Below are positions 57,800 through 61,929 of a stretch of DNA of 64,000 nt, one piece after another. The stretch spans positions 248,001 to 312,000 of the forward strand of contig NZ_AULP01000001.1 of the NCBI RefSeq assembly GCF_000422345.1, written 5' to 3'. Within the stretch, counting starts at the first letter, position 1. Each line of letters starts with the position of its first letter. Origin of the DNA: Neomelitea salexigens DSM 19753. GTDB taxonomy: Bacteria > Pseudomonadota > Gammaproteobacteria > Pseudomonadales > Spongiibacteraceae. Position numbers and translations under genes: made by a program. The notes beneath the pieces were generated by a model. That model saw nothing but the letters and a program-made list of their open reading frames with translations, was not told the DNA's origin and did no database searches.

Positions 57800-59269
57800 C
57801 TACTTAGTCGCCGCAAGCCCTCGCCTTTCCATTCGCCGTAAAAACACCTCAATAACTGCCGCGTAAAGCGAGTCGCCGAGCAGCTTATCCTCTACCCCGC
57901 TGTCTATGCTGGGATTGTCGTTGACCTCAATGACCACCACCCGACTTCCCTGCTGCTTGATATCCACACCATAAAAACTGTTGCCAATAAGCTGACAGGC
58001 ACTGACCGCTGCGCGCAATACGTCGGCTGGGACATCGCTAATCGGCACCGCATCAAATCCACCTGACTGGCTTCGCTTGCCGTGACGATAAATCTGCCAA
58101 TGTTTTTTCACCATGTAATAACGACAAGCAAATAACGGTTGGCCGTCCAATACCCCAATACGCCAGTCGTATTCGGTATACATAAACTCCTGCGCAAGAA
58201 GCAGCGCCGACTTATCCAGTAGTCGCTGCGCTTCCACACACAGCGCTGCCAGGCTGTCGACTTTAACCACCCCTTTAGAGAACGCACCATCGGGCACCTT
58301 TAACACCAGGGGTAGGCCAAGTGCATCTATCAAGCGCCGCGCTTCCGACTCACTGCCACTTCGCAAATACTCCGTCTTCGGTACAGCAACCGCGTTCCGC
58401 CTTAGTAAATCAGCAAGATAGATCTTGTTCGTGCACCGTAAGATCGACTGGGAGTCATCGATAACCACCAGGCCTTCCGCTTCCGCGCGCTTGGCAAAGC
58501 GGTAACTGATGTTCGCTACCGACGTTGTCGTGCGGATAAACAAACCGTCGTACTCTGCCAGCCGCGAATAATCCGCTCTTCCAATCAGCTCCGCACAGAT
58601 ACCGTATTTTTCCGCGACGCGGATAAATTTCCGCAGGGCGGCGCCGTCGCTAGGCGACATCGCCTCCTCGGTATCGACCAGAATCGCCAGGTCATAGCGG
58701 AAGCGCTTTTGCGCGGGGGCCGGCCGCCATAGTTTTTGACTGAAGCGCTCAAAGCACGCCGCAAAGCTGTCTTGCTCAGTGCTCGACGACAAAGCCCGCA
58801 GCGACGCGGCCTGTAATTTATCCATACGCCAGCCCTGGCGATACACCATGCGCAGCTCAAGGATAGGACACGGAAAGTACTGAAACGCCGAGCGCGCAAG
58901 GTTGGCATATTCTGGCTCCAAAGTCTCGCCGAACCAGCATCGCAACTGTTTCACCTCGCCCGGCTGGCCCGGTGCAAGCGCAGCAAGCGTCGGCGACATA
59001 CCCTGCCACTGAATAGACGACAGCGGCTTTGCCGACAATTCAGTCAGGGTTTTCAGCGATGGAATAACATGATGCCCGCGGGCTTCAGCCAACAGAGAGC
59101 AGTAGTAGCCGCTACCGAGATAGCGGTAGTTCCGGCAAAGATTAACGACCCTGACGCGCTCGCGAGTCGTTCCAAGACAAAGATAATCATCAAAACTGAT
59201 GACCGAATGGCTGGGATAATAAGGCCCCCAGTCGCGCACATCATCGACAACAATAACTAAACGGGACAT
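57800..59269 (-). CDS. RimK-like ATP-grasp ligase with N-terminal RLAN-type domain
   Basis: 489 residues from ATG 59269 (ATG 59278 is three codons earlier but too near its GGGAG). The N-terminal third (about 1-190, LVIVVDDVRDWGPYYPSH) is the domain placed before RimK-like ligases (PF14401-like). The C-terminal ATP-grasp has LVLKVPDGAFSKGVVKV, DWRIGVLDGQPLFACRYYMVKKHW in parts, FYGVDIKQQG and metal-binding VIEVNDNPSID. ATP-grasp ligases of this group form amide bonds, adding amino acids to peptides or proteins. It is divergent from a GNAT-peptidase gene and close to a DUF1704 gene; together they suggest a modification system. Confidence 0.87.
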   Translation of the reverse strand: MSRLVIVVDDVRDWGPYYPSHSVISFDDYLCLGTTRERVRVVNLCRNYRYLGSGYYCSLLAEARGHHVIPSLKTLTELSAKPLSSIQWQGMSPTLAALAPGQPGEVKQLRCWFGETLEPEYANLARSAFQYFPCPILELRMVYRQGWRMDKLQAASLRALSSSTEQDSFAACFERFSQKLWRPAPAQKRFRYDLAILVDTEEAMSPSDGAALRKFIRVAEKYGICAELIGRADYSRLAEYDGLFIRTTTSVANISYRFAKRAEAEGLVVIDDSQSILRCTNKIYLADLLRRNAVAVPKTEYLRSGSESEARRLIDALGLPLVLKVPDGAFSKGVVKVDSLAALCVEAQRLLDKSALLLAQEFMYTEYDWRIGVLDGQPLFACRYYMVKKHWQIYRHGKRSQSGGFDAVPISDVPADVLRAAVSACQLIGNSFYGVDIKQQGSRVVVIEVNDNPSIDSGVEDKLLGDSLYAAVIEVFLRRMERRGLAATK

Positions 59270-59456
59270 CGGCTCCATGCTCCCAAAATGCTCTCCCCAT
59301 GCGGGATCAGCGACCGTCTATGCGGTGGCAAAAGCTGCGGCATTCTGCGACCAGCGCAACAGCGAAACAAGTACTATTTTATGTTGTAGACGGCAAATAA
59401 TGCGCAGTATGATCCGCACATGCGCCGCCATCTGCGGTATTTGTCGAGTCTGCCCC

Positions 59457-60584
59457 ATGTCGCCGTGTATTCGCCCCGCTAGCCCCATAGATTTGCCGGC
59501 ACTGGTCGAGCTGGAACGACACTGCTTTAGTAGTGACCGGATCTCCCAGCGCAGCTTTAAAGCGTTCATCCGCCACGGCGCCCACCAATTGCTCGTCTGT
59601 CGTGAAGCTGACAAACTGTTGGGCTATGCATTGCTACTGTTTCGCCGTGGCACCCTGCTGTCCCGGCTTTACTCACTCGCCGTCGCGCCCGACCAACGCG
59701 GTAAAGGCGTCGCGATGTTATTACTCGACGCAGCGGAACAACTCGCCCGCAACAGGCAAAGCGTTTTCCTTCGCCTTGAAGTCAGAGAGGACAATGCCGC
59801 CGCAATTTCCCTGTACAACCGCCGTGGCTACCGCACTTTTGGCCGTGTCAGTGACTACTACGCCGATGGTTGCAGTGCCGTACGTATGGAAAAGCGACTG
59901 CTAACACCCGCGCAGCGCGGCGCGCACTCACCCCACTACTACCGGCAGACCACGGGTTTTACCTGCGGCCCCGCCAGCTTGATGATGGCCATGCGAGACC
60001 TGGATCCGGCATCGCCCTTTTCCCGGCGCGAGGAGCTGCAAATCTGGCGGGAAGCCACCAGCATCTATATGGGTAGCGGTCACGGTGGCTGCACACCACA
60101 AGGCTTAATGTTGGCGGCGCTGCGCCGAAAATTTAACGCCACGCTCTTTATTAGCGATACGGCCCCCGCCTTCATCGACAGCGTTCGCTCGCCCTCCAAG
60201 CGCCAGCTTATGCAGCTGGTTCACGACGATTTTATGGCGCAGTTGACGGACTATAAGGCGGATATTCGGGTCAATAAGCTCGACACACCGGCCCTGCAGT
60301 CGCTATTGATTGAAAACCGTCACGTTGTCGCACTGATCAGCACGTGGGCACTCGACCGCCAACGCGCGCCTCACTGGGTATATGTGTACCGAGGGGAGGA
60401 AAATACGGTGTATATCAATGACCCCGACAGCAACACCTGTCGGGGCCATTCCTTAGACAGCAGCAAGGGCCACTGGCAGTCTGAGATTGAATACCACCGC
60501 GTGCCAATATCACTTGAACAATTCAGCAACATGGCAAGCTTTGGAAAACGGCGTCTACGCTGCATATTAACCCTACAAAAATGA
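59457..60584 (+). CDS. GNAT acetyltransferase fused to a C39-like peptidase
   Basis: 375 residues from ATG 59457; an upstream reading is Cys-rich and unlike the family. Residues about 1-150 are a GNAT domain (acetyl-CoA loop RGKGVAMLLL, then YNRRGYRTFGRVSDYY), close to RimI in pattern. Residues about 152-375 are a papain-like C39-type domain with C170 in GFTCGPASL, a histidine in PHWVYVY and an Asp in INDPDS. The fusion (DUF3335-type) is known beside RimK-like ligases. It could acetylate and cleave N-terminal parts of peptide substrates; no substrate is visible. Confidence 0.85.
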   Translation: MSPCIRPASPIDLPALVELERHCFSSDRISQRSFKAFIRHGAHQLLVCREADKLLGYALLLFRRGTLLSRLYSLAVAPDQRGKGVAMLLLDAAEQLARNRQSVFLRLEVREDNAAAISLYNRRGYRTFGRVSDYYADGCSAVRMEKRLLTPAQRGAHSPHYYRQTTGFTCGPASLMMAMRDLDPASPFSRREELQIWREATSIYMGSGHGGCTPQGLMLAALRRKFNATLFISDTAPAFIDSVRSPSKRQLMQLVHDDFMAQLTDYKADIRVNKLDTPALQSLLIENRHVVALISTWALDRQRAPHWVYVYRGEENTVYINDPDSNTCRGHSLDSSKGHWQSEIEYHRVPISLEQFSNMASFGKRRLRCILTLQK

Positions 60585-60591
60585 GGCCGTG

Positions 60592-61929
60592 ATGACATCA
60601 GACGCCACAAGTTATAAAACAGCGCTGCGCGCGCTCTCGGATGAGCTGATCCGCATTCAAAAGCCGATATTGATACTCGATGCGATCAAGTGGCCCCATG
60701 ATGTGGAGAAACGTTTTTTTGAGAACGGCGCCAACGCGCTACCGACCGTGTGCCGTGAAGACTACCTGCGCAACAACCCTCTCAGTTTCAACGCGGCAGA
60801 GATTGATGCACAACTGAAAAACTTCCAACAACGGCTCGATAGTGCTCTGGGGCACGGCGACGCCCTCGGCCAAATTCTTTGGCAAACCGCCGAACAGTAC
60901 CGCAGCGTGGTTGACCTACTGGAGCACCGTGGCCAAAAGGCATTCTTGACCGCCAGCCGGCGGCTTTATGGCTCTGCACGCGATCGTCTGCGGGGTGACA
61001 GCCTGCCGCTTATCGACATGGGTAAGCGCTTGTGCAGCATTTTTTCCCTTCCCGCTGCCCACCATCTTGCATCCCCCTACCCCAAGGTCATCGATGCGAC
61101 TGGCGCAGTGGAAATGCTCTCCCAACGACTCAAGCCCTTTTTTCCGGATACCGCTTTCACCGTTCGGGAAACAGATGGCATCGTGTCTGATGCCTCAGCC
61201 GGGGGCGACTGCATCAAAATTAATCGCCACGCGCAATTCTCCCTTCTCGATATACAAGTTTTGGAGGTTCACGAAGGTTGGGTGCATGTCGGCACCACGT
61301 TAAATGGTCGCCGCCAGCCATGGGCCAGCTGGCTAAGCGTCGGCTCTCCCCGTATTACTGCCCTCCAAGAGGGCTTAGCAGTGCTTATCGAGACACTGAC
61401 GTTTAGCTCTTTTCCCGGGCGCGCGCGAAAAATCAGCGACCGTGTAGTGGCTATCGATATCGCAGAACAAGGGGGCGACTTTCTCGATGTATATCGGCAC
61501 TTTGTTGGCCAGGGCCTCAGCAACAAGGAAAGCTACAAAATTGCCCAGCGGGTATTCCGCGGTGGAATGGTGGAAGGCGGCGCCTGTTTCACCAAAGATT
61601 TGAGCTACGTCAGGGGCTTTGTCGAAACGGTAAACTTTATTCGCAGCGCGATCCTCAGCGACGTGCCGGAAATACTACCAATGCTGTTTGTAGGCAAGGT
61701 GTCCCTGGAGGACGTCCCCCATCTCTACCCCTATTGCCAGGAAGGCATCATTGAAGCGCCGCATTATCTGCCGCCTATGTTTCGAGACCTAAATGGCTTG
61801 TACGTGTGGTTTGGCTTATCTAGCGGGCTGGCGGATATCAATATTCACAGTGTCCAGGAGCACTTTCAAACACTTTTCGAGCACTTGAAAGCCGCTCCGG
61901 ACGCTATACATGGCACCAAGTGCGATTAG
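60592..61929 (+). CDS. DUF1704 zinc-peptidase-like protein (QEGLA motif)
   Basis: 445 residues from ATG 60592; GAGG 5 bp upstream. The motif VHEGWVH (H227-x3-H232, HExxxH type) and ALQEGLAVLIE (Q259-) are the family marks. The family, named flavohemoglobin expression-modulating QEGLA protein in bacteria, is related to the MATCAP/KIAA0895 carboxypeptidases that remove C-terminal residues from tubulin, where the ligase is also an ATP-grasp protein. This supports a ligase/peptidase pair here. It is coupled to the GNAT-C39 gene with 7 bp between stop and start. Confidence 0.87.
   Translation: MTSDATSYKTALRALSDELIRIQKPILILDAIKWPHDVEKRFFENGANALPTVCREDYLRNNPLSFNAAEIDAQLKNFQQRLDSALGHGDALGQILWQTAEQYRSVVDLLEHRGQKAFLTASRRLYGSARDRLRGDSLPLIDMGKRLCSIFSLPAAHHLASPYPKVIDATGAVEMLSQRLKPFFPDTAFTVRETDGIVSDASAGGDCIKINRHAQFSLLDIQVLEVHEGWVHVGTTLNGRRQPWASWLSVGSPRITALQEGLAVLIETLTFSSFPGRARKISDRVVAIDIAEQGGDFLDVYRHFVGQGLSNKESYKIAQRVFRGGMVEGGACFTKDLSYVRGFVETVNFIRSAILSDVPEILPMLFVGKVSLEDVPHLYPYCQEGIIEAPHYLPPMFRDLNGLYVWFGLSSGLADINIHSVQEHFQTLFEHLKAAPDAIHGTKCD

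Follow-up and report, generated by a model that had tools for sequence, protein, structure and literature searches.

A Ligase, a GNAT-C39 Fusion and a MATCAP Protein Conserved Side by Side in Spongiibacteraceae: a Candidate Peptide-Modification Locus of Neomelitea salexigens

Introduction

Do an ATP-grasp ligase, an acetyltransferase-peptidase fusion and a bacterial homolog of the tubulin carboxypeptidases, encoded side by side, work on one substrate, and are they a unit beyond the genome in which they were noticed? These questions are raised by a locus at positions 57800..61929 of a 64,000-nt stretch of the genome of the marine bacterium Neomelitea salexigens DSM 19753 (Gammaproteobacteria, Spongiibacteraceae; contig NZ_AULP01000001.1, positions 248,001 to 312,000), called the window below. 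A first-pass annotation had described an RLAN-type RimK-like ligase, a GNAT-C39 fusion and a DUF1704 protein here, and had proposed that they add and remove terminal amino acids on a bacterial protein or peptide. Pfam and NCBIfam searches confirm all three families at this place. DUF1704 is the former Pfam name of MATCAP, the name used here. The three genes do not travel together widely: the core is formed by the RLAN ligase and GNAT-C39, and MATCAP is an addition in one lineage. As to function, we are evenly divided over a reading, drawn from the protein families, in which the locus would be a cytoplasmic peptide-modification module, the carboxyl end of a peptide being extended and trimmed and its amino end handled by the GNAT-C39 protein.

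Conservation and Linkage of the Three Genes

The ligase gene (57800..59269, minus strand) is divergent from the gene of the GNAT-C39 fusion (59457..60584, plus strand), which is followed in the same direction by the MATCAP gene (60589..61929). The last two are coupled, as had been proposed: MATCAP starts (60589) 4 nt beyond the GNAT-C39 stop (60584), and in three relatives (L166, L167, and L168) the two genes overlap by 4 nt instead. Among 21 sampled genomes of the same family, MATCAP was found in 20 and RLAN in the same 20, with GNAT-C39 adjoining MATCAP in every one of them; the 21st genome, which is 70% complete, showed neither MATCAP nor RLAN. The close relatives that bear a name comprise Spongiibacter thalassae and three records of Zhongshania. 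The trio stays together in L163, L166, L167, and L168, although the outer gene context varies among them. All three genes are under purifying selection, the non-synonymous rate (dN) being well below the synonymous rate (dS) wherever dS was computable; in comparison with the closest relative read (L171), dN/dS is approximately 0.05 for RLAN, 0.19 for GNAT-C39, and 0.07 for MATCAP. Given this selection and a linkage repeated in all 20 same-family carriers, the association of the trio inside Spongiibacteraceae goes beyond chance.

The pairing of the first two genes extends much further. Of the 229 genomes that make up a class sample, 50 have RLAN, 34 a strong match to DUF3335 (the C39-like domain of the fusion), and 35 MATCAP; genomes with weak DUF3335 matches (G004, G016, G049, and G116) were left out of this count. 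RLAN is present in 33 of the 34 strong DUF3335 genomes, 7.4 being expected (p 4e-26), so a chance neighborhood of RLAN and GNAT-C39 was rejected. We read 44 GNAT-C39 loci outside the family, from 30 of the 33 strong DUF3335 genomes of the class sample other than the window genome and from 14 of 38 further ones of a phylum sample; RLAN adjoins GNAT-C39 in 41 of them.

For MATCAP the picture outside the family is different, and the following observations, together with those on DUF2817 and ArgE given below, weigh against its being a regular member of the module. The survey of genomes for co-occurrence suggested in the first-pass annotation bears out the trio in all 20 same-family carriers, but RLAN and MATCAP co-occur in just 9 of the 229 class-sample genomes, 7.6 being expected (p 0.51), which is not above chance. 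DUF3335 and MATCAP co-occur in 4 of 229 (5.2 expected); in the phylum sample the count is 7 of 249 (3.7 expected, p 0.07). Where a MATCAP gene does share a genome with RLAN (8 class-sample genomes, the window genome excluded) or with DUF3335 (6 phylum-sample genomes), it is unlinked in all 14: the genes lie far apart or on separate contigs, adjacency across contig ends being possible in drafts like G114. Broad separation in related genomes had been named beforehand as a result that would tell against the proposal, and outside Spongiibacteraceae, with 0 of 14 linked, such separation is what we found. Among the 80 best contig loci for MATCAP, a set rich in Pseudomonas, the RLAN/GNAT-C39 pair adjoins in 5 (the four named Spongiibacter and Zhongshania records and L086, a gammaproteobacterial metagenome-assembled genome), and 2 have a rimK gene nearby. 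MATCAP loci were read in 21 of 34 class-sample genomes other than the window genome and in 6 phylum-sample genomes, in segments of about 10-16 kb, and 18 of 20 class-sample loci (L172-L191) show none of the ligases searched for. Finally, in a MATCAP tree of 55 rows selected from the loci read, the linked copies group together in a single clade (support 98/97), which includes one unlinked copy, that of Methylomicrobium sp. wino1; this grouping perhaps reflects a single origin of the linkage. An RLAN/GNAT-C39 pair, then, normally operates with no MATCAP linked to it.

These data could also be explained if MATCAP were a passenger, fixed beside the pair in an ancestor of Spongiibacteraceae and co-transcribed with it while having another target. 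The single clade, the chance-level co-occurrence in the class sample and the separation in 14 of 14 genomes all agree with this. Nevertheless, we regard it as quite improbable: the linkage is retained in 20 of 20 genomes with differing outer neighbors, the short gaps or overlaps suggest co-translation, and GNAT-C39 has an M14 or DUF2817 gene as a neighbor in 9 of 44 loci elsewhere.

Genes beside RLAN and GNAT-C39 in Other Genomes

A DUF2817 gene was present in five and a Peptidase_M14 gene (in Pfam, zinc carboxypeptidase) in four of the 44 non-family GNAT-C39 loci, that is, in 9 of 44 together against 0 of 102 control loci (p 1e-5); these nine loci argue against the passenger explanation. The control, consisting of MATCAP loci without the pair, is rough and includes many Pseudomonas, and the hidden Markov models (HMMs) applied to it derive from genes flanking the pair, which means that remote members among the 102 may have escaped detection. 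Of the 135 genes found no more than two genes away from the pair, DUF2817 (5) and M20 (5) are the commonest, M14 (3) being equal to GGDEF and HAMP, and one of the five DUF2817 loci (L240) shows no RLAN in view. DUF2817 also accompanies the trio in both sister-genus genomes that carry it (L054 and L058) and in L086; where it does so, DUF2817, GNAT-C39, and MATCAP share the same orientation, and in L168 they overlap by 4 nt. DUF2817 is probably M14-related, the sole hint of such kinship here being a match to AstE/AspA that falls below the cut-off.

The second of the reservations announced above concerns ArgE. An argE-like gene stands beside the pair in 9 of the 44 loci (L200, L207, L208, L210, L212, L217, L218, L219, and L239) against 1 of 102 controls (p 8e-5), and is thus as frequent as M14 and DUF2817 together. 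The single one tested exceeds both curated acetylornithine-deacetylase cut-offs and is probably an ordinary arginine gene; ArgE was therefore rejected as a third partner or eraser. Since ArgE, probably an ordinary gene, recurs equally often, closeness alone is weak to moderate evidence.

The ArgE-type M20 genes are, at the same time, what one would look for in a LysW-like carrier scheme, in which the ligase would load an amino acid on the C-terminal Glu of a carrier and the peptidase would release it after modification. LysX is indeed the best NCBIfam match of the ligase, but its 71 bits stay below the LysX equivalog cut-off (275.6 bits), and the ArgE tested looks like a gene of ordinary arginine metabolism. 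Moreover, among the ORFs (open reading frames) of at least 50 amino acids near the pair in non-family loci, none of a carrier's size is seen repeatedly, and we consider the scheme highly improbable.

RLAN loci without DUF3335 have another composition. Of 17 class-sample genomes with RLAN but no strong DUF3335, 16 were read, and eight of these loci (L243-L246, L248, L249, L253, and L256) hold a full operon for a C39-like peptidase, RLAN, GCS2, and an N-formylglutamate-amidohydrolase-like protein (FGase). Three have a partial operon (L250 at a contig end, L251, and L258), four have GNAT without C39 (one of them broken), and one has RLAN alone. GCS2 and GNAT-C39 are mutually exclusive by locus among the 60 loci (16 + 44), and may be alternative suppliers of the amino-end group. 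By its gene families, the GCS2/FGase operon looks like an unexplored glutathione-like peptide pathway. In a separate observation, L254 (5124-6744) has an RLAN ORF in pieces beside a GNAT gene, and the module looks degraded there.

Such operons give some weight to an explanation without any writer or eraser, namely that these systems make a small acylated peptide: GNAT or GCS2 would supply the cap, RLAN would add a residue, the C39 domain would act as peptidase or transpeptidase, and MATCAP, FGase or M14 would degrade or mature the product, as in the metabolism of glutathione or N-acetylated dipeptides. Apart from the GCS2/FGase composition of 8 of 16 loci and the fact that GCS2 and GNAT-C39 are never co-located, this explanation is favored by the outcome of a search for precursors: in non-family loci, no small ORF (at least 50 amino acids) turns up repeatedly up to three genes away from the pair, and a precursor peptide gene of that size was rejected as a candidate. 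The proteins themselves point the other way. The GNAT domain resembles protein N-terminal acetyltransferases, the ligase profile is nearest to RimK and LysX types, which act on proteins (for RimK, PMC12239564), and the characterized MATCAP relatives work on protein tails (PMC10499314). Weighing both, we hold the small-peptide explanation to be possible, if somewhat doubtful.

Genes beside MATCAP and Response to Salt

Away from the pair, MATCAP was found near other ATP-grasp ligases. In L179 it is the direct neighbor of rimK and rimB, and in L180 less than 2 kb separates it from both; in two Shewanella loci a rimK gene is 0.7 and 5.5 kb away. For a long form of MATCAP (about 630-700 amino acids), 9 of the 10 genomes read place a glutathione-synthetase-like ATP-grasp gene next to it, often together with FGase (L023-L030, L197, and L198, the exception being L025, which has little flank; L196 and L028 are one genome). 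The glutathione-synthetase-like label comes from Pfam for L197 and L198 and, for the rest, from an HMM built from those two. Long-form matches occur in at least eight further genomes (four in the class and four in the phylum search), and the N-terminal part of the long MATCAP in L198 itself matches FGase. This company again fits small-peptide metabolism.

Expression data from Photobacterium damselae bear on the same genes. At 1% versus 3% NaCl, a QEGLA gene is up 27.5-fold and a GshB-annotated gene with a neighboring locus tag 38-fold, which is consistent with a small-peptide product, and RimK is likewise induced, 52-fold (PMC10308900). The rlo genes, described below, are also linked to low osmolarity (PMC12239564). 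These ligase/peptidase sets therefore deserve attention as candidates for a role in salt stress.

Predicted Activities of the Three Proteins

The ligase (489 amino acids) joins an RLAN domain (PF14401, E 7.2e-40) to a RimK-like ATP-grasp domain (PF08443, E 7.2e-07). Its ATP-grasp active-site motif EVNDNP (57911..57928, minus strand) aligns with EVNxxP of RimK-type ligases; E, N, D, N, and P are invariant in 48 RLAN proteins, as are many other positions. The profile of the family matches RimK-type structures (best E 1.2e-12) and LysX-type ligases of lysine biosynthesis. With catalytic residues conserved, the protein is likely an amide ligase. The ligase scores 33.7 bits with the S6 ligase model PRK10446 against a cut-off of 331, does not match the Rimk_N domain, and gave no TTL match in the Pfam search. 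The possibility that it is an S6 ligase was rejected as unlikely, the same genome having rimB-rimK elsewhere, with a RimK that does carry Rimk_N. Relatives of the RLAN ligase are also encoded in 19 plasmid records; the best match shares 50% identity and comes from a 180-kb Pseudomonas aeruginosa plasmid (NZ_CP133752.1:38471-39931).

The GNAT-C39 fusion (375 amino acids) consists of a GNAT domain (59499..59831; PF00583, E 2.4e-16) and a papain-like DUF3335 domain ("Peptidase_C39 like", 59934..60575; PF11814, E 4.8e-70). In structure-profile comparison the best-scoring solved relatives of the GNAT part, and thus its nearest kin, are N-terminal protein acetyltransferases; it reaches 74 bits with rimI, below the cut-off of 86.4. 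In the papain-like domain, Q164 (presumably the oxyanion Gln), C170 (codon 59964-59966), and H306 (codon 60372-60374) are invariant across 39 GNAT-C39 proteins. With TIGR03103 (trio_acet_GNAT, N-acetylglutaminylglutamine synthesis) the protein scores 21.4 bits against 569, outside that family.

The MATCAP protein (446 amino acids) is a clear member of its family by PF08014 (E 4.5e-124, 414.5 bits, cut-off 27) and exceeds the cut-off of the TIGR02421 QEGLA model (352.5 against 338.65 bits). Both motifs reported in the first-pass annotation were located, HEGWVH, an HExxxH zinc motif, at 61270..61287, and QEGLA at 61366..61380, its E presumably being the third zinc ligand. H188, E189, and H193 and the sequence E221-G-L-A are invariant in 30 aligned MATCAP proteins. 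The bacterial profile matches the structure of human KIAA0895L (7z5g, E 3.3e-13), and both motifs line up in this match. KIAA0895L is a tubulin carboxypeptidase, and carboxypeptidase activity, acting on protein tails, has been shown for eukaryotic MATCAP members, which were recognized as tubulin tail trimmers only recently (PMC10499314, 2023). With its catalytic residues intact, the window protein is likely a carboxypeptidase by chemistry; we found no characterized bacterial member among the papers listed in searches of the open-access literature. An amide ligase opposed by a carboxypeptidase, the chemistry proposed at the outset, is thus supported by the family assignments.

Comparison with Known Systems and Proposed Role

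Neighborhoods of RLAN and GNAT-papain proteins with a peptide-ligase role were reportedly predicted by Iyer et al. in 2009 and are said to hold the core pair. In them the same RLAN-RimK ligase reportedly stands beside the GNAT-papain-like DUF3335 fusion, and the difference here is that in Spongiibacteraceae a third gene, MATCAP, has become a constant part of the set. A GNAT-DUF3335 fusion with a suggested peptide-ligase role is already in print with a reference to Iyer 2009 (PMC10318531), in keeping with the earlier remark that related clusters had been noted before, and GNAT capping of ATP-grasp products has been proposed for other families too (PMC4431377). No paper describing MATCAP with RLAN was found among those listed in searches of the open-access literature.

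Several known systems combine an ATP-grasp ligase with a peptidase. RimK-RimB pairs the S6 glutamate ligase with an aspartic peptidase dedicated to removing what RimK adds; here the RimK N-domain is absent, a metallo-carboxypeptidase-like protein replaces the retropepsin, and GNAT-C39 is extra. In RloA-RloB-RloC, too, an ATP-grasp protein is opposed by a peptidase, and epistasis has been demonstrated, although its membrane inactive-transglutaminase and secreted protease are absent at the window locus. In a P. aeruginosa triple mutant of rloA-type proteases, loss of rloB or rloC (ATP-grasp) rescues low-salt growth wholly and other defects partly (both systems as presented in PMC12239564). The rescue is a precedent for antagonism, not proof for the window locus. 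Counting the trio, the window genome carries three ATP-grasp/peptidase sets, the other two being rimB-rimK followed by an AstE/AspA-type gene (L265, G000:C2:253500-257500) and a rloA-rloB-rloC-like set (L266, G000:C2:434500-440500).

In the tubulin system the ligases are TTL and TTLL. There an ATP-grasp-type ligase and a MATCAP-family carboxypeptidase (MATCAP/TMCP; PMC10499314) act on one C-terminus; the window set, in contrast, is bacterial and its RLAN ligase lacks a TTL match. One can imagine bacteria having their own equivalent of tubulin tyrosination. In such a reversible cycle an ATP-grasp ligase would attach C-terminal residues to a single bacterial protein and MATCAP would take them off again, while products of the operon cut and acetylate the amino end of that protein, with MATCAP, M14 and perhaps DUF2817 swapping as eraser and MATCAP serving RLAN, RimK, and glutathione-synthetase-like ligases. 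We think this full version unlikely.

The peptide-modification module itself can be outlined as follows. The C39 domain would cut or trans-acylate one peptide substrate, and the GNAT domain would cap the amino end freed by it. The RLAN ligase would add one or more amino acids to the carboxyl end, using ATP, and MATCAP would remove the added residues or trim the product, filling the slot that M14 or DUF2817 proteins may occupy beside GNAT-C39 in some other genomes. That ligase and carboxypeptidase share one substrate is suggested by the repeated finding of ATP-grasp ligases next to peptidases or amidohydrolases that belong to differing families, and since GNAT-C39 adds cutting and capping of the amino end, a peptide treated at both ends is suggested. 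As to the nature of the substrate, by analogy the RimK, LysX, and MATCAP relatives would favor a protein, and the GCS2, FGase, and glutathione-synthetase-like partners a small peptide. For the original proposal this means that adding and removing terminal amino acids is reasonable in Spongiibacteraceae, with MATCAP/ATP-grasp pairing seen more widely, but is not a general rule for RLAN systems. Its choice of Glu or Tyr as the added residue and of a protein as the substrate found no direct support, the sister GCS2/FGase operons pointing equally to a small peptide.

Gene Starts and Surroundings of the Locus

The GNAT-C39 ORF opens at 59277, but homologs start at ATG 59457, so the ORF was over-called at its start. 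The ligase start was set by homology at 59269, an alternative upstream start at 59278 being possible. With starts at 59457 and 59269, the divergent arrangement noted earlier is retained with a gap of about 190 nt and no overlap (59270..59456, presumably the promoter region); scans for promoters and RNAs found neither a sigma-70-like site nor an Rfam match in it. In L166 and L169 the called ORFs leave only about 80-100 nt in this gap, little room for a precursor peptide gene, although over-calling of the GNAT-C39 or RLAN start is possible there too. No signal peptide was apparent by eye in any of the three proteins. The outer neighbors are ordinary: a pair of genes for acyl-CoA dehydrogenases flanks the locus at one end, and ppnP and a transporter gene, labeled RND-type by eye, flank it at the other.

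Implications

A bacterial locus that keeps MATCAP next to a RimK-like ligase could help to show which purpose this old enzyme family served. The swapping of partners, in turn, provides a concrete prediction for a ligase family present in 50 of the 229 class-sample genomes.

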